Shown here one piece after another: positions 1 through 53,682 of a stretch of DNA of 64,000 nt; position 1 is the stretch's first letter, and each line of letters begins with the position of its first letter. The notes below the pieces were generated by a model. The model had not been told where the DNA came from. It saw nothing but the letters and a program-made list of their open reading frames with translations, and made no database searches. The DNA is from Chryseobacterium sp. ISL-80. GTDB taxonomy: Bacteria; Bacillota; Bacilli; Bacillales; Cytobacillaceae. The stretch is from the NCBI GenBank assembly GCA_018613055.1, contig JAGGQZ010000001.1, positions 152,348 to 216,347 of the forward strand, given 5' to 3'. The translations under genes were made by a program, and so were the position numbers.

Positions 1-1153
1 CAAGGATACGCTTGTTTCTGAAATCAGTGATTTGAAAATCAGCCTGGCTGCAAAGAAAGAGCAGCTTTCGCATGTGAAGGAAAAACTGGATTCTGCAAGC
101 TTGCAGGCAGAAGAACAATCAGCGAAATTGTCAGTGCTGAAAGAAGACCTGTCACTTCTTTCATCAGAAATGACGGATAGTTCCTCCGGAGAAACTCAGC
201 TGGAGGAAGCAGCAAAGCGGAAGCTTCAGGATAAAAATGAAACATTGAAGCTGATCGCATCCAGGAGACATGAGAGGCTTGAACTGCAGAACAGGCTCGA
301 GGACCAGGAATTGGAGTCGAAGGAGCTAAGAAGGCTGCAAAAAGGCATCAATGAAGTCCTCAAGGATGAGGAAGTAAAACTGAACAGGCTAGATGTGGAA
401 CTGGACAATAAGCTCGCTCATCTTCGCGAAGAGTACCTGCTTTCCTATGAGGGTGCTAAAGAGCAGTATCCGCTGACAATCCCGGCTGATGAAGCAAGAC
501 GGAAAGTAAAGCTTATCAAACTGGCGATTGAAGAACTGGGAACCGTCAATCTTGGTGCAATAGAGGAATATGAGAGAGTATCTGAACGTTATGAATTCCT
601 GCTGGAGCAAAAAAATGACCTCCAGGAAGCAAAGGACACTCTTTTCCTTGTCATCGAGGAAATGGACCAGGAAATGAAGAAGCGTTTTGAGCAGACATTC
701 ACCGGCATCCGTTCCCACTTCGAACCCGTTTTCCAGGCGTTGTTCGGCGGAGGAAGAGCAGATTTGCGGCTGACCCAGCCTGATGACCTGTTAAACACCG
801 GTGTCGAAATTGTTGCACAGCCACCCGGGAAAAAGCTTCAGAACCTCGGGCTGTTGTCTGGCGGTGAGCGTGCATTGACGGCGATCGCACTGCTGTTCTC
901 CATCCTGAAGGTACGTCCAGTCCCATTCTGTATTCTGGATGAAGTGGAAGCGGCATTGGATGAAGCCAATGTATACCGATTCGCCCAATACCTGAAAAAA
1001 TACCGTGATGAAACGCAATTTATTGTCATCACCCACCGAAAAGGTACAATGGAGGAAGCGGATGTCCTGTATGGTGTAACAATGCAGGAATCGGGCGTCT
1101 CCAAGCTTGTGTCCGTCCGGCTGGAGGACTCAAAAGAACTTGTGAAATTGTAA
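1..1153 (+). CDS. smc: Chromosome partition protein SMC, C-terminal part (5' end outside window)
   Basis: The frame is already open at base 2, so only the last 383 residues are present. SMC is the DNA-entrapping ATPase of the bacterial SMC-ScpAB condensin, which compacts and separates sister chromosomes. The first half is a charged Glu/Lys/Leu-rich stretch typical of the returning coiled-coil arm. The ATPase head half follows, with the ABC signature LSGGERALTA (from about base 854), Walker B ILDEVEAALDE (about 930-965) and the H-loop ITHRKGTME (about 1027). The stop lies 18 bases before ftsY, the known rnc-smc-ftsY arrangement of Bacillus. Nothing looks broken apart from the window edge. Confidence 0.97.
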   Translation, partial: KDTLVSEISDLKISLAAKKEQLSHVKEKLDSASLQAEEQSAKLSVLKEDLSLLSSEMTDSSSGETQLEEAAKRKLQDKNETLKLIASRRHERLELQNRLEDQELESKELRRLQKGINEVLKDEEVKLNRLDVELDNKLAHLREEYLLSYEGAKEQYPLTIPADEARRKVKLIKLAIEELGTVNLGAIEEYERVSERYEFLLEQKNDLQEAKDTLFLVIEEMDQEMKKRFEQTFTGIRSHFEPVFQALFGGGRADLRLTQPDDLLNTGVEIVAQPPGKKLQNLGLLSGGERALTAIALLFSILKVRPVPFCILDEVEAALDEANVYRFAQYLKKYRDETQFIVITHRKGTMEEADVLYGVTMQESGVSKLVSVRLEDSKELVKL

Positions 1154-1171
1154 TGAGAGAGGCGATGGACT

Positions 1172-2176
1172 GTGAGTTTTTTCAAGAAATTGAAAGAAAA
1201 ATTTACGACACAGACTGAGAGTGTCACAGAGAAATTCAGAGATGGCTTGACGAAAACGAGGGATAACTTTTCCAATAAAGTGAATGACCTTGTATCCCGT
1301 TATCGTAAAGTCGATGAGGAATTTTTCGAAGAGCTTGAAGAAATCCTCATCCAGGCGGATGTTGGATTCGAAACGGTGATGGAATTAGTCGAGGAACTGA
1401 AGAAAGAGGTTAAGCGACGCAACATCCAGGATACGAAAGATGTCCAGGCTGTCATTTCCGAGAAGCTTGTTGAAATTTATGAAAACGGAGCAGATGAACA
1501 ATCGTTCGACCTGAACATCCAGGAAGATGGATTGACTGTCATCTTGTTCGTAGGAGTCAATGGCGTCGGCAAAACAACGACCATCGGCAAACTGGCCCAT
1601 AAATTCAAGAGTGAAGGAAAGACTGTCCTTCTTGCTGCAGGGGATACATTCCGTGCAGGTGCAATCGAGCAGCTTGAGGTCTGGGGAGAGCGTGTCGGGG
1701 TGGATGTCATCAAGCAGGCAGAAGGCTCCGACCCTGCGGCTGTCATGTATGATGCTGTCCAGTCTGCGAAATCCCGTAAAGCAGATATCCTGATTTGCGA
1801 TACGGCCGGACGTCTTCAAAACAAGGTCAATCTCATGAAGGAACTTGAAAAGGTGAAACGTGTCATTGAACGTGAAGTGCCGGGTGCTCCTCATGAGGTA
1901 TTGCTTGTACTGGATGCCACTACCGGCCAGAACGCACTGATCCAGGCCAAGACGTTCAAGGAAGCGACAGATGTCAGCGGCATCGTTCTGACCAAGCTTG
2001 ACGGTACTGCCAAGGGTGGTATTGTCCTTGCCATACGCAATGAATTGAATATCCCGGTGAAGTATGTCGGTCTTGGCGAAAAGATGGATGACCTCCAGGA
2101 ATTCGATCCTGAAAGATATGTATATGGCCTGTTTGCTGACCTTGTCGAGGAAGAGGAAATAGCGGAAGAATCTTGA
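1172..2176 (+). CDS. ftsY: Signal recognition particle receptor FtsY
   Basis: This is the membrane-associated GTPase that docks SRP-ribosome complexes at the Sec translocon. The protein has 334 residues, normal for Bacillus, with a GTG start behind a GAGAGGCGATG-like ribosome site. It has a short charged N-terminal region, the helical N domain, then the SRP-type G domain: P-loop GVNGVGKT (residues 128-135), DTAGRLQ and [10 protein letters not shown]. It lacks the Met-rich M domain, which separates it from Ffh. It lies 18 bases after smc and is probably co-transcribed with it. The G domain makes a heterodimer with Ffh, encoded 440 bases downstream. Confidence 0.97.
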
Positions 2177-2198
2177 TTTACAGGCATATGGCTGTAAA
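2177..2198. repeat. Near-palindromic dyad directly after ftsY stop
   Basis: TTTACAG and CTGTAAA flank a central CATATG, giving a 22-base almost perfect dyad that starts at the base after the ftsY stop codon. No T-tract follows, so it does not look like a standard terminator. It sits 10 bases upstream of the -35 box of the putative ylxM promoter. It could be an mRNA 3'-end hairpin or an operator. Confidence 0.45.
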
Positions 2199-2207
2199 GA
2201 ACTTATC

Positions 2208-2236
2208 TTGACAGGGAAGAGGAACGTGTGTAAACT
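2208..2236 (+). promoter_or_regulatory. Candidate sigma-A promoter for ylxM-ffh
   Basis: A perfect -35 TTGACA is followed by 17 bases and TAAACT, about 40 bases before the ylxM start. The spacing is ideal and the -10 box is moderate. Confidence 0.6.
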
Positions 2237-2276
2237 CTTAATGTAAAGGTATTTCACTTAACATGGGGGAATTGAA

Positions 2277-2606
2277 ATGCTTGAGAAAACGAACCGAATG
2301 AATTATTTGTATGATTTTTATCAGGCATTGCTGACTCCAAAACAAAGCAGTTATATGGCTCTATACTATCTTGATGATTACTCTCTGGGGGAAATTGCGG
2401 AAGAGTATGATGTTAGCCGGCAGGCGGTATACGACAACATCAAACGTACCGAAGCGATGCTTGAGGAGTATGAAGAGAAGTTGTTGCTGTTCGAAAAATT
2501 CCAGAAACGAATAGAGCTGATTTCCAAAATGAAAAAGCTTGTGGGGAATGGCGAGAACAGCGGTGATCTAGCTGAAATGATAGCCGAGCTTGAGAAATTA
2601 GACTAG
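2277..2606 (+). CDS. ylxM: YlxM/p13-like helix-turn-helix protein
   Basis: A 109-residue protein of the UPF0122 (YlxM, p13) family, placed directly before ffh as in other Firmicutes. Residues about 18-55 resemble a sigma-70 region 4 type helix-turn-helix ([16 protein letters not shown], then [20 protein letters not shown]). The rest is a charged helix. Family members have been proposed to modulate the SRP, but the exact role is unsettled. The ATG follows a GGGGGA ribosome site. It ends 13 bases before ffh, so co-expression is very likely. Confidence 0.93.
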
Positions 2607-2619
2607 GGAGGCACATGAT

Positions 2620-3972
2620 ATGGCATTTGAAGGATTGGCCGACCGACTGCAAAATACAATGCAAAAGATCCGCGGAAAAGGCAAGGTCTCAGAAGCGGAT
2701 GTAAAAGAAATGATGCGAGAGGTCCGTCTGGCGCTTCTTGAAGCCGACGTTAACTTTAAAGTTGTAAAAGACTTCGTGAAGAAGGTCACTGAAAGGGCTA
2801 TAGGCCAGGAGGTTGTAAAAAGCCTGACACCAGGCCAGCAGGTCATCAAGGTTGTTAAAGAAGAACTAACCGAGTTGATGGGCGGGGAACAAAGCAAGAT
2901 TGCTGCCTCCAATCGCCCGCCGACTGTCATCATGATGGTCGGTCTTCAAGGTGCGGGTAAAACGACAACAACCGGAAAGCTGGCAAATCTTCTTCGCAAA
3001 AAATATAACCGCAAGCCATTGCTTGTAGCGGCGGATATCTACCGCCCGGCTGCGATCAAGCAGCTTGAGACACTCGGCAAGCAATTGAGCATGCCGGTAT
3101 TCTCGCTGGGAGACCAGGTCAGCCCGGTTGAAATTGCCAAGCAGGCAATTGCCAAGGCGAAGGAAGACCACAATGACTATGTCCTCATCGATACTGCGGG
3201 CCGTCTTCATGTGGATGAAAACCTGATGGATGAGCTTAAGCAGATCAAGGAGCTTTCTAAACCTGATGAAATCTTCCTTGTTGTCGATGCGATGACAGGG
3301 CAGGATGCCGTCAATGTGGCCCAGAGCTTCAATGAACAGCTTGGCTTGACTGGTGTTGTCCTTACGAAGCTTGACGGCGATACTCGTGGCGGTGCAGCGC
3401 TCTCCATCCGTGCGGTGACCAATACGCCAATCAAGTTTGTTGGTCTTGGCGAAAAACTTGATGCACTGGAAGCATTTCACCCTGAAAGGATGGCATCCAG
3501 AATCCTTGGAATGGGAGATGTCCTTACTCTGATCGAGAAGGCCCAGGCCAATGTTGATGAAGAGAAAGCGAAAGAGCTCGAGAAAAAAATGCGCACAGCA
3601 TCCTTTACCCTTGACGACTTCCTGGACCAGCTTGGCCAAGTAAGGAAGATGGGGCCGCTGGATGAAATCCTGAAAATGATGCCTGGTGCAAATAAAATCA
3701 AGGGCATGAACAATCTCCAAATCGACGAGAAACAAATCTCGCATGTTGAGGCGATCATCCAATCGATGACGGCCAATGAAAAAACTCATCCTGAAATCAT
3801 CAACGCCAACAGGCGCAAACGGATCGCGAAAGGAAGCGGGACCTCCATCCAGGAAGTCAACCGTCTCCTGAAACAATTCGAAGATATGAAAAAGATGATG
3901 AAACAGATGACGAACATGCAGCAAAAAGGCAAGAAAAAAGGCGGATTCAAGCTGCCGTTCAACCCTTTTTAA
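2620..3972 (+). CDS. ffh: Signal recognition particle protein Ffh (SRP54)
   Basis: The 450-residue GTPase and signal-sequence-binding subunit of the SRP works with 4.5S/scRNA to target nascent membrane and secreted proteins. Order: helical N domain, G domain with P-loop GLQGAGKT (108-115), DTAGRLHVDE and TKLDGDTRGG, then the Met-rich M domain ending in MKKMMKQMTNMQQ, which binds signal peptides and RNA. The length is typical. The start is supported by GGGAGGCAC. FtsY upstream and FlhF in the flagellar operon are its two paralogues, all in this window. Confidence 0.98.
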   Translation: MAFEGLADRLQNTMQKIRGKGKVSEADVKEMMREVRLALLEADVNFKVVKDFVKKVTERAIGQEVVKSLTPGQQVIKVVKEELTELMGGEQSKIAASNRPPTVIMMVGLQGAGKTTTTGKLANLLRKKYNRKPLLVAADIYRPAAIKQLETLGKQLSMPVFSLGDQVSPVEIAKQAIAKAKEDHNDYVLIDTAGRLHVDENLMDELKQIKELSKPDEIFLVVDAMTGQDAVNVAQSFNEQLGLTGVVLTKLDGDTRGGAALSIRAVTNTPIKFVGLGEKLDALEAFHPERMASRILGMGDVLTLIEKAQANVDEEKAKELEKKMRTASFTLDDFLDQLGQVRKMGPLDEILKMMPGANKIKGMNNLQIDEKQISHVEAIIQSMTANEKTHPEIINANRRKRIAKGSGTSIQEVNRLLKQFEDMKKMMKQMTNMQQKGKKKGGFKLPFNPF

Positions 3973-4013
3973 CTTGTAAATTCAGGTATTTTCAGTCTGT
4001 AAAGAAAAAAACC

Positions 4014-4042
4014 TTTACAAGCTGTTTTTAATTTGGTATTAT
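4014..4042 (+). promoter_or_regulatory. Sigma-A promoter for rpsP
   Basis: TTTACA, exactly 17 bases, then TATTAT, ending 40 bases before the rpsP ATG. Near-consensus boxes and ideal spacing fit a highly expressed ribosomal protein gene. Confidence 0.75.
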
Positions 4043-4081
4043 TCTATCTTGTGTGAAACTATTCGGAGGTGCTTATTTAAA

Positions 4082-4354
4082 ATGGCAGTAAAAATTCGTT
4101 TAAAACGTATGGGAGCTAAAAAATCTCCTTTCTATCGTATTGTAGTAGCTGATTCCCGTTCACCACGTGACGGCCGTTTCATCGAGTCTGTAGGAACTTA
4201 CAACCCAGTTGCTCAACCAGCAGTGGTTGAACTTAACGAAGAGTTGGTTCTTAAGTGGTTGAACGACGGAGCAAAACCATCTGATACAGTGCGTAACTTG
4301 TTCTCTAAGCAAGGTATCATGGAAAAATTCCACAACGCAAAGCTTAGCAAGTAA
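4082..4354 (+). CDS. rpsP: 30S ribosomal protein S16
   Basis: A 90-residue S16, a small-subunit assembly protein: [19 protein letters not shown], then [19 protein letters not shown], the family signature. An in-frame upstream start would add 11 non-conserved residues. The ATG chosen here gives the universal MAVKIRL start and has GGAGGTGC 10 bases upstream. Codon choice is strongly biased (cgt, gta, ctt), as expected for a ribosomal gene. It has its own promoter and heads the khpA-containing transcript. Confidence 0.97.
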
Positions 4355-49705: not shown

Positions 49706-49753
49706 TTAGGATAGCAACTAGAAAAATGCGTAATGCGCGTGAGGAGGGTGACA

Positions 49754-50515
49754 ATGGTGCGAGGATCCACTTCGGAAGAACAGTTAACATGGGATAAATG
49801 GGTACAATCCCGAGATCCGGATGCGGGGAATATGCTGATAAAAAAATATATGCCACTTGTTTCCTACCATGTGCAAAGAATCTCTGTGAGTCTTCCGAAG
49901 AGTGTTTCCAGGGATGATTTAAGAAGCTTAGGGATGATTGGTTTATATGATGCTCTCGAAAAATTCGATCCAAACAGGGATCTGAAGTTTGATACATATT
50001 CTTCATTTCGGATTCGCGGGGCGATTTTGGACGGATTAAGAAAGGAAGACTGGCTTCCAAGAAGTACCCGGGAAAAAGCAAAGAAAATAGATGCAGCAAT
50101 TGAGAGACTTGAACAGCGCTTGATGCGCAATGCGACTATTGAGGAAATTGCCAGTGAATTGAATATGGATGAAACGGAGATACACACAACTATCAATGAA
50201 CATTTTTTCGCGAATGTCCTCTCAATAGATGAGCATCCAAATGAAAATGATGAACGTGACAACCAGTCATTCGTCATCAAGGACGAAAAGGCTGAGATCC
50301 CTGAGGACAAGCTCATTAAATCTGAGCTTCTTGAAGAAGTAGCTGACAAGATTTCAAAATTGAATGATAAAGAACAACTTGTGCTGAGTTTGTTTTACAA
50401 AGAAGAATTAACCTTAACAGAAATCGGTCAAGTCATGAATTTATCTACCTCCAGAATTTCACAAATTCATTCAAAGGCAATTTTTAAGTTGAGAAAATGG
50501 CTGGAATCAGCCTGA
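49754..50515 (+). CDS. sigD: RNA polymerase sigma factor SigD (FliA type)
   Basis: A 253-residue sigma-28 factor for late flagellar, chemotaxis and autolysin genes. Region 2 (YMPLVSYHVQRISVSLPKSV, then DLRSLGMIGLYDALEKFDP), GLRKEDWLPRSTREKAK, region 3 and region 4 (EKEQLV-type LNDKEQLVLSLFYKEELTLT, then LSTSRISQIHSKAIFKLRKW). The ATG at 49754 is placed after GGAGGG; the ATG seven codons earlier lies before that site and gives non-conserved residues. Confidence 0.97.
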   Translation: MVRGSTSEEQLTWDKWVQSRDPDAGNMLIKKYMPLVSYHVQRISVSLPKSVSRDDLRSLGMIGLYDALEKFDPNRDLKFDTYSSFRIRGAILDGLRKEDWLPRSTREKAKKIDAAIERLEQRLMRNATIEEIASELNMDETEIHTTINEHFFANVLSIDEHPNENDERDNQSFVIKDEKAEIPEDKLIKSELLEEVADKISKLNDKEQLVLSLFYKEELTLTEIGQVMNLSTSRISQIHSKAIFKLRKWLESA

Positions 50516-50534
50516 TAAAAGGCAGGAGATGGAT

Positions 50535-51917
50535 GTGGCGACGGATTATTTAGTGAGGATATCCAATGACAGGCTTTCTGCTGAACTTGAAATTGATATC
50601 CAGGAACATGATTTTTCATTATCTGTTCGAAATTTATTGAGCGTCCTGGAAAAAGAGAATATTGTGTTCGGTATTAAAATGGATGTATTGGCGCAAATTG
50701 CCGAAAATCCTGCTTCTGTTGAATATCCTGTAACAATTGCCGTTGGAATGCCAAATGTGGATGGTGAAGATTCCTATTTGCGCAATGAACTAACACAAAC
50801 CAGCATGGAGGAACAGAAAGTCTTTCATTTCCGTTCGATTATGCATATCCCGTCAGTAAGGAAAGGTCAGTTGCTCGCATGTGTTGTCCCTCCTGTCAAC
50901 GGAACACCTGGGAAAGACGTAACCGGAAGGATCGTTCCGGCAAAGCCCGGCCGTCCGCTTAGGGTCAAAGCAGGGGATAATGTGATGTTCGAAGCTGGAC
51001 AATTTTATGCCGTATGCGATGGACAAGTAAGTATTACGCAGAAATCCATTTCCGTTAATCCTGTTTATGAGGTAAAAGGTGATCTTGATTTGAGAACAGG
51101 GAATTTGGACTTTGTGGGCAATATCGTCATAAAAGGCAATGTTCCCAGCGGTTATGAGCTGAAAGCCGGCGGGGACATCATCGTAGATGGACTAGTTGAA
51201 GCAGCCAATCTCCAGGCAGGAGGAAATATTGTCGTTAAAGGCGGAGTGGCCGGAGCGATGAAGGGGAGAATGACTGCAGGCGGGAACGTATTCGCCAATT
51301 ATCTTAACCAGGCAAATGTAAAAGCTGGCCAGGATATCATTGTCAAGTCATCCATCCTCCACAGCAAACTGACAGCTGCTGGAAGTGTGGACTGCCAAAC
51401 TGGCACTATCATCGGAGGTACCATTTCGGCTGGCCGGAATATTTCAGTCAAGGAACTAGGAAATGAGCTCTTTACCAAAACCGAGTTAGCTGTAGGCTGG
51501 GATCCCTTGCTTGAGAAAACTGAACAGGAAACGATTGCTTCCATCGAAACAGCAAGAGTGAATATACGGAAACTGACAGAAATAGAAGTGAAGCTTGCTG
51601 AAATTGGCAGGCGTGCAGGTGCCTTGACGAACGATCAGAAGCAAATGATTGCGAAACAGCGGAATACCAGGCTGCAGCTTGAAGAATCCCTAGCAGAACT
51701 GTTGGCAGATCTGGAGTTTTTACAGCTTGAAAAACAGGATCGATTGAATTCCTGCTTAACCGTTAATGATAAGGTATTCCCAAATACGAAGGTGTTTTTC
51801 GGGAAGTACGCCTTCTTGACAAACCAGATATACAAAAAGGTGAATTTCTATCTCGAAAATAGTGAGATTTCAATTAATCCGATTGTAAAAGTCGAGACTT
51901 CACAAGTTAGGAAGTGA
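50535..51917 (+). CDS. fapA: FapA-family (DUF342) protein
   Basis: About 460 residues, matching the DUF342/FapA ('flagellar assembly protein A') family. An N-terminal ~170 residues include VVPPVNGTPGKDVTGRIVP. A right-handed beta-helix-like region rich in Gly/Val/Ala repeats follows (GDIIVDGLVEAANLQAGGNI, then VVKGGVAGAMKGRMTAGGNV), then a coiled coil (about 330-410). No membrane segment. The B. subtilis operon has no such gene between sigD and swrB. The AGGAG site abuts an ATG at 50529, so GTG at 50535 is the likelier start. The role in Bacillus is unknown. Confidence 0.88.
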   Translation: MATDYLVRISNDRLSAELEIDIQEHDFSLSVRNLLSVLEKENIVFGIKMDVLAQIAENPASVEYPVTIAVGMPNVDGEDSYLRNELTQTSMEEQKVFHFRSIMHIPSVRKGQLLACVVPPVNGTPGKDVTGRIVPAKPGRPLRVKAGDNVMFEAGQFYAVCDGQVSITQKSISVNPVYEVKGDLDLRTGNLDFVGNIVIKGNVPSGYELKAGGDIIVDGLVEAANLQAGGNIVVKGGVAGAMKGRMTAGGNVFANYLNQANVKAGQDIIVKSSILHSKLTAAGSVDCQTGTIIGGTISAGRNISVKELGNELFTKTELAVGWDPLLEKTEQETIASIETARVNIRKLTEIEVKLAEIGRRAGALTNDQKQMIAKQRNTRLQLEESLAELLADLEFLQLEKQDRLNSCLTVNDKVFPNTKVFFGKYAFLTNQIYKKVNFYLENSEISINPIVKVETSQVRK

Positions 51918-51921
51918 CATG

Positions 51922-52233
51922 ATGAGCCTCAAAGCAATCGAAATGCAGATTGCTCTTCCGAGGACACATGATGCCGGCAAAATTCAAGAGCAACTTCAAC
52001 AGCGGGGACAGCATCTTCAGGAGCATGCGGCACAAAGTGTGACGAAGGAAGATGATTTAAAACGCAAGACGGTGGTTAAAAACAACCAGAAGCAGGAAGC
52101 CCGCCTTAATCAGGAGGACGGCCAACCAGGAGGCCAACAGCAAAAGGGCAGGGACAATCAAAAGAACAAGGATGAACAAAATGTACAGCCACACCACCCT
52201 TATAAAGGGAAGGTGATTGATTACAGCGGATAG
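51922..52233 (+). CDS. Small Gln-rich flagellar-operon protein, unknown function
   Basis: A 103-residue protein, hydrophilic and Gln/Lys/Asn-rich. The N-terminal part (LKAIEMQIALPRTHDAGKIQ) looks structured. The middle (about 45-85) is low-complexity, and the end HHPYKGKVIDYSG looks like a short docking motif. I do not recognise a named family, though similar small genes follow sigD in Firmicutes. ATGs at 51919 and 51922 are both possible after AGGAAG. It starts two to five bases after fapA and ends nine bases before the swrB-like gene, so it is clearly part of the operon. Confidence 0.75.
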   Translation: MSLKAIEMQIALPRTHDAGKIQEQLQQRGQHLQEHAAQSVTKEDDLKRKTVVKNNQKQEARLNQEDGQPGGQQQKGRDNQKNKDEQNVQPHHPYKGKVIDYSG

Positions 52234-52242
52234 AGGGATACA

Positions 52243-52827
52243 ATGACCACTTTTCTACTACTCTTAAGCCTCATACTGAACGCGGCGGCAATCTTCGCCA
52301 TTATCCTATTATATTTACGGCAAAATCGGCTTGTTGAAGCAGAAAAAAAACAGGAAAAAATCATCAGCGAAATGGAAGAGATTTTTTCGTCCTATCTTTA
52401 TGAATTGAAGGAAGAGAATGATAAATTTCTTGAGTTGATGACGAACACCAATATTCAAGTGAATACGGGCAAAGAGGAAATGCATCCTGATGAAACTAAT
52501 ATGGGATCACAGAAGGACCCCGAAGTCAGAAACCACAAAATCCAACAACACCGTCCCGGTAAAGGGATATCCTATCACGCTGCAAGACAGGCATACCATA
52601 AAGCAGGTGAATCAATCACAGTCCCGCCTGGAGATACGGAACTGACAGAAATCGATAACGGCCAACCTGCCGATCCAGAACCAAAAACAAAGGAAATCAG
52701 CTTGATTGATCAAGTTACAGCCATGAGACATCAGGGGCTGACGATCGAAGAAATAGCCAGGGATCTGGATAAAGGGAAAACGGAGATAGAACTTTTACTT
52801 AAATTTCGTCAAAATACAAAAGATTAA
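52243..52827 (+). CDS. swrB: SwrB-like (YlxL) membrane protein
   Basis: A 194-residue protein in the position of B. subtilis swrB, last gene of the fla/che operon. One N-terminal membrane segment (about 4-26), a coiled coil, a disordered middle, and a C-terminal helix-turn-helix-like segment LTIEEIARDLDKGKTEIELL ending LKFRQNTKD. SwrB in B. subtilis helps FliF/FliG polymerise and activates the export gate. Identity by position and layout rather than strong similarity, so the symbol is provisional. Confidence 0.7.
   Translation: MTTFLLLLSLILNAAAIFAIILLYLRQNRLVEAEKKQEKIISEMEEIFSSYLYELKEENDKFLELMTNTNIQVNTGKEEMHPDETNMGSQKDPEVRNHKIQQHRPGKGISYHAARQAYHKAGESITVPPGDTELTEIDNGQPADPEPKTKEISLIDQVTAMRHQGLTIEEIARDLDKGKTEIELLLKFRQNTKD

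Positions 52828-52932: not shown

Positions 52933-53682
<750 letters not shown>

Follow-up and report, generated by a model that had tools for sequence, protein, structure and literature searches.

The 64,000-nucleotide stretch of DNA analysed here (the window) belongs to a Bacillaceae genome that is Mesobacillus-like by its nearest named relatives, and contains the end of a flagellar operon, in which the gene order is cheC, cheD, sigD, fapA, a small gene, a SwrB-like gene, rpsB and tsf. The genes cheC, cheD, sigD, rpsB and tsf were named by reading their protein sequences. On the forward strand, sigD (sigma-28/FliA, 49,733–50,515) is followed by fapA (50,529–51,917), whose product matches PF20250 and PF03961, and then by the small flagellar-operon gene (51,922–52,233). 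Downstream lie a gene for a SwrB-like or DUF6115-like membrane protein (52,243–52,827), with matches to PF19610 (E 7.9e-4) and PF10975 (E 0.0026) that are both below cut-off, and rpsB (52,972–53,682), which marks the flank of the operon. A sequence-only reading of this DNA had described an unrecognised small operon protein between fapA and a swrB-like gene; its placement was borne out at the locus, and its open reading frame, 51,919–52,233, and both end sequences were exact. The start codon is probably the second ATG, at 51,922, which gives 103 residues, with the start at 51,919 adding one methionine. This choice is favoured by a Shine-Dalgarno-like GGAAG (51,910–51,914, forward strand), 7 nt upstream and within the 3′ end of fapA, and by the MSLK start found in many homologues. 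The placement of the GGAAG site makes translational coupling between fapA and the small gene likely.

We compared the selection acting on different parts of the small gene in 21 congeneric sequences. The dN/dS ratio is 0.043 for residues 1–31, 0.097 for residues 32–63, 0.464 for residues 64–89 and 0.029 for the C-terminal 13 residues. At the same loci, the last 400 codons of fapA give 0.115 (21 sequences) and swrB gives 0.251 (20 sequences), thus both ends of the small protein are more constrained than either neighbour. The small open reading frame is a genuine gene, and selection on both of its ends is strong. The N-terminal conserved block (MSLKAIEMQIALPRTHDAGKIQEQLQQRGQH, 51,922–52,014), delimited by conservation and dN/dS, and the C-terminal peptide (HPYKGKVIDYSG, 52,195–52,230), with Pro, Gly and Asp at positions −11, −8 and −4 from the end, lie on either side of a Gln/Lys/Asn/Gly linker (52,111–52,188; pLDDT mostly under 50) that varies in sequence and in length, all on the forward strand. 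The proposal of constrained ends around a variable linker therefore holds, at dN/dS 0.04, 0.46 and 0.03; the fast-changing stretch exists but is shorter than had been claimed, covering approximately residues 64–90 only. Homologues were gathered into two profiles, A1 (29 rows, Bacillales) and A2 (70 rows, including members from a sample of 398 Bacillota genomes). In the 29 Bacillales sequences Q10, P14, H93, P94, G97 and D101 are invariant, while the columns of A2 conserved at 90% or more are M1, Q9, G96 and D100, numbered from MSLK. The small protein carries both motifs that we propose as the signature of the family, [VI][DE][LM]Q..hP[RK] at the N-terminus and G..hDh.. at the C-terminus, and its gene lies in a flagellar operon.

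The AlphaFold2 model of the small protein, built with 64 sequences, is weak overall (mean pLDDT 64, pTM 0.26). Helices are predicted at residues 4–11 and 16–66, followed by a region with pLDDT below 50 (residues 69–87) and a loose tail. The long predicted helix (residues 16–66; 51,964–52,116, forward strand) is of moderate confidence, with 10-residue block means of 57–84 pLDDT between residues 11 and 60. The model suggests that the first half of the protein is helical, without a tertiary fold. No transmembrane segment was detected in the small protein (maximum 19-residue hydropathy 0.13).

We also considered an RNA element within the small gene. Fourfold synonymous divergence is 0.34 in the small gene versus 0.43–0.60 in the flagellar neighbours. 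The lowest windows of the small gene fall in its 5′ half (minimum 0.34), and the starts of sigD and swrB give 0.22 and 0.38, respectively. RNA folding of the single sequence gave z-scores of −0.26, 0.36 and −2.61, and Rfam returned nothing at gathering scores. The RNA element was rejected, the low synonymous divergence being likely a gene-start effect. As separate observations, synonymous divergence across 51,922–52,068 reaches roughly half the level seen in fapA, cheC and cheD, and 52,090–52,235 folds better as RNA than its shuffles, again for the single sequence (z −2.61, 3 of 200).

Searches of Pfam and NCBIfam found no family for the small protein, and no relatives were found among solved structures. 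The 70 family members, run against the family libraries, yielded six Pfam and three NCBIfam matches, each isolated to a single member and the best at E 9e-4, which we took as chance. Neither the Pfam and NCBIfam searches with the small protein nor the matches of the 70 members included a FlgM profile, and no rod, hook or cap family matched the small protein or the members. A mobile origin was rejected, with no PHROGs match for the small protein and no plasmid match. In PMC11607428 (2024), “YjfB (an uncharacterized small protein)” is placed within a sub-module together with sigma-28, FapA and TM+HTH genes. Judging from this position, and from a C-terminal tail shared with YjfB that is described below, the “YjfB” of that text is probably the present small gene, at least in part. 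Thus, “unrecognised” is correct in that the searched libraries hold no model for the family, and is too strong in that an uncharacterised small protein is mentioned, as YjfB, in PMC11607428. As far as the searched open-access literature shows, the small gene is otherwise absent from print.

The family is widespread in Bacillota. Profile A1 matches 112 of the 398 sampled genomes and A2 matches 195, about half, mostly in a flagellar operon and usually at its sigma-28/(fapA)/swrB end. The flagellar export gene flhA is found in 191 of the 195 family-positive genomes versus 326 of the 398 overall (Fisher p 4e-18), with no flhA match in the remaining four. At least 82 of the 112 A1 matches immediately follow a strong fapA match on the same strand, with a gap of 15–140 bp in profile coordinates. 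The strong FapA matches listed comprise 150 places in 147 genomes, so that the number of such genomes is at least 147, and 64 of these 147 have no A1 match. We inspected 20 of the 64 loci and found that 19 encode a diverged family member; at the twentieth (L187), flagellar rod genes follow fapA. In the small sequence set used there, a first iteration with A1 alone already recovered 111 of the eventual 113 members. Overall, of the 147 genomes listed with a strong FapA, 138 carry the family and nine lack it. Conversely, 57 of the 195 family-positive genomes have no strong FapA among the matches listed, and some of these 57 do have one. Homologues with both end motifs in flagellar operons were found Bacillota-wide, so the sequence-only reading withstands the refutation it had set for itself, namely that no such homologues exist. 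The small protein is a real, widespread and uncharacterised flagellum-gene product of Gram-positive bacteria, and its involvement with the flagellum is very probable.

Among 61 genomes, including that of the window, 44 contain the small gene. The two that lack flhA (G024 and G058) also lack the small gene and were kept apart when the small gene was tabulated against operon fapA, as classified by coordinates. In the flagellated genomes, both genes are present in 32, only the small gene in 12, only operon fapA in two and neither in 13. The two genes are associated (Fisher p 1e-4 over genomes), and with one genome per genus the counts become 12, 12, 2 and 13 (p 0.04). Six of the 12 genomes with the small gene and no operon fapA have FapA elsewhere. 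We read the locus in the flagellated relatives without the small gene other than G035 and G048–G051: two (G034 and G059) have the order sigD–fapA–swrB, and eight have sigD–swrB alone. The small gene is thus dispensable for having flagella, as these ten flagellated relatives demonstrate. Additionally, flhA lies in two frames or has an internal stop in G004, G010, G022 and G049, and is in two pieces on different contigs in G050.

The neighbourhood was then examined at 80 named Bacillaceae loci (L075–L154), the best 80 of 352 confirmed places. The SwrB-like gene follows the small gene in 79 of these, and the sequence of the one exception (L114) ends 84 nt past the small gene. A fapA gene precedes the small gene in 51 loci and is absent from the locus in 29. 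In 28 of these 29, the sigma gene match ends 24–600 nt upstream of the small gene and no fapA match lies within the locus; L126, the last of them, lacks sigD there as well. The flanking sigD, small and swrB-like genes are still in order where fapA is missing, which suggests repeated loss of operon fapA in Bacillaceae. At L126 (Metabacillus niabensis, 117–4237), the small gene and the swrB-like gene are present while the fla/che operon is apparently gone, and the genes ahead of the small gene are presumably topA and trmFO; the arrangement looks as if it were a remnant or an assembly join. L104 (Paenibacillus sp. FSL R5-0490) and L137 (Pseudomonas sp. ISL-84) both have a Bacillaceae-type locus, and their names are perhaps wrong.

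Twenty clostridial loci without a listed strong fapA were interpreted by reading translations. The small gene directly follows the sigma gene in at least nine of the 20 (L156, L159–L162, L164, L168, L170 and L173), and a complete or partial fapA lies upstream of it in L155, L163, L165 and L166. L157 and L158 begin too near the small gene to show the upstream neighbour. At L167 (G168, 3461–3775), the family member lies among flagellar rod genes, away from sigma-28 and fapA. No SwrB-like neighbour was seen by reading L159, L165, L166, L170 and L172, and L160 ends too early to show one. The sequence-only reading had proposed a two-motif linker or regulator. A dedicated link between FapA and SwrB is not supported, in view of the 29 Bacillaceae loci without fapA, the two relatives with fapA and no small gene, and some clostridial loci that have no SwrB-like neighbour. 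Reading of the clostridial loci L155–L194 also revealed SwrB-like or DUF6115-like TM+HTH proteins after the small gene in many cases. SwrB is given as conserved only in Bacillus in PMC4526659; the neighbours found here suggest a wider SwrB family. In Clostridia, the SwrB-like gene is often followed by one for a further short protein whose N-terminus carries a membrane segment (L155, L156, L161, L162, L168 and L175), and we take this protein to be MltG-like.

The C-terminal peptide of the small protein recurs in YjfB (PF14070), another small protein for which we found no known function. YjfB proteins were obtained from 12 of the 61 genomes, 11 of them over the Pfam cut-off, and all 12 carry Pro −11, Gly −8 and Asp −4 at the free C-terminus in the same register as the small protein. 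The likeness is confined to this tail. Profile comparison with YjfB aligned the last 15 columns only, both for A2 (hhalign probability 92%, E 5.9e-7) and for A1 (85%, E 6.3e-6), and the N-terminal blocks do not align: YjfB has approximately 58–66 residues and a MDIxxLSMxLSQ-like start, an N-terminal helix with no counterpart in the small protein. At the best 80 of 352 loci, the complete triple is confined to the small gene: among 5153 frames that run from stop to stop over 60 codons or more, it occurs in exactly 80, one per locus and each at the small gene. Codon patterns, which miss some variants of the motif, were also run against the genome of the window. They matched at four places; one is a plausible gene, the small gene itself, and the other three are frames of 13–28 codons. 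Within the whole family (A2, n = 70), Asp −4 is present in 68, Gly −8 in 65 and Pro −11 in 39. Nine of the 12 YjfB genomes have both the small gene and a separate YjfB gene, in different places, and three have no small gene. There was no PF14070 match for the small protein, in the 70 members at E 0.01 or in genome G000. The shared tail points to a common docking partner, and both common descent of the tail and convergence on one receptor fit the likeness.

One rival explanation is that the small protein is homologous to YjfB over its full length and has merely gained a long insert, given the identical C-terminal register and the mention of YjfB in this sub-module in PMC11607428. However, the absence of PF14070 matches, the alignment limited to the last 15 residues and the co-occurrence of the two genes in nine of 12 PF14070-matching relatives make this rather improbable. 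FlgV type 1 (the BB0268 family), as described in PMC11607428, is likewise encoded in a flagellar superoperon near sigma-28 and fapA, but it has two transmembrane helices, the second of which contains an arginine, whereas the small protein has no such helix. FapA itself is the immediate neighbour, and the small protein might serve as its dedicated partner, such as a cap or tether of the FapA β-solenoid. The usual position directly downstream, with probable translational coupling, the presence of the family in nearly all listed strong-FapA genomes and the association of the two genes in the operon, over genomes and per genus, all agree with this. FapA and the small protein have no family match in common, though, and each is present at the locus without the other: fapA is missing at 29 of the best 80 of 352 loci, two genomes keep operon fapA alone, and for 57 of the 195 genomes with the family there is no strong FapA among the matches listed. 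Such loss of fapA where the small gene is retained weakens the case for a FapA-only partner, and we consider a dedicated FapA partner quite unlikely.

Where fapA is missing, the small gene comes immediately after the sigma gene. In Bacillaceae, no neighbour accompanies it more regularly than the SwrB-like gene, which is present at 79 of the best 80 of 352 loci. SwrB (YlxL), which activates export through FliP according to PMC4526659, is encoded at the same operon end and is a candidate functional step; it differs in being a membrane protein, and family searches gave no relation to the small protein. The small protein might hence regulate sigma-28, as an accessory anti- or pro-sigma factor, or the export-activation step of SwrB. 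We regard this as unlikely, since neither FlgM nor any other regulator profile matches and since, in the clostridial genome of L167, the gene has rod genes around it and is separated from sigma-28. Alternatively, the flagellar export apparatus might secrete the protein as a minor component, with the C-terminal peptide serving as a chaperone or export signal. This appears very unlikely: the protein's size, lack of a transmembrane helix, predicted helix and disorder, and flagellated hosts would suit such a role, but it matches no rod, hook or cap family. Finally, the variable and compositionally biased late middle could be taken as the mark of dispensable low-complexity filler between fapA and swrB. 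This is scarcely credible for the gene as a whole and is refuted for its ends by their dN/dS of 0.03–0.04 and Bacillota-wide retention.

Our preferred explanation, which we advance tentatively and at a little under an even chance, is that the small protein is a soluble, cytosolic, two-ended adaptor of Bacillota flagellar assembly. The free C-terminal peptide, P..G..hDh..-COOH, would dock onto a flagellar receptor that is also used by YjfB. That the peptide sits exactly at the free C-terminus, keeps a tight register and recurs in two otherwise unlike small motility proteins suggests a docking role. The N-terminal helix-Pro-helix element would bind a second partner, and the flexible linker would enable both ends to work some way apart. 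Given the retained sigma-28 and SwrB-like neighbours, the adaptor would probably act late in assembly, at the stage of sigma-28 and of the export that SwrB licenses. FapA may be a frequent co-worker of the adaptor, not an obligatory target. A broader proposal, possible and on balance doubtful, is that P..G..hDh..-COOH constitutes a Bacillota docking code, which two or more small motility proteins of otherwise unrelated sequence would carry and one receptor would read, and that the small protein is an old adaptor kept widely and apparently absent from B. subtilis.

B. subtilis apparently has the order sigD–swrB as well, without fapA and the small gene, so that work on this model would miss the small protein. 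The 11-residue peptide shared with YjfB is a concrete bait for finding the flagellar receptor. Species that naturally have or lack fapA, and have or lack the small gene, make the FapA, SwrB and sigma-28 hypotheses separable genetically.
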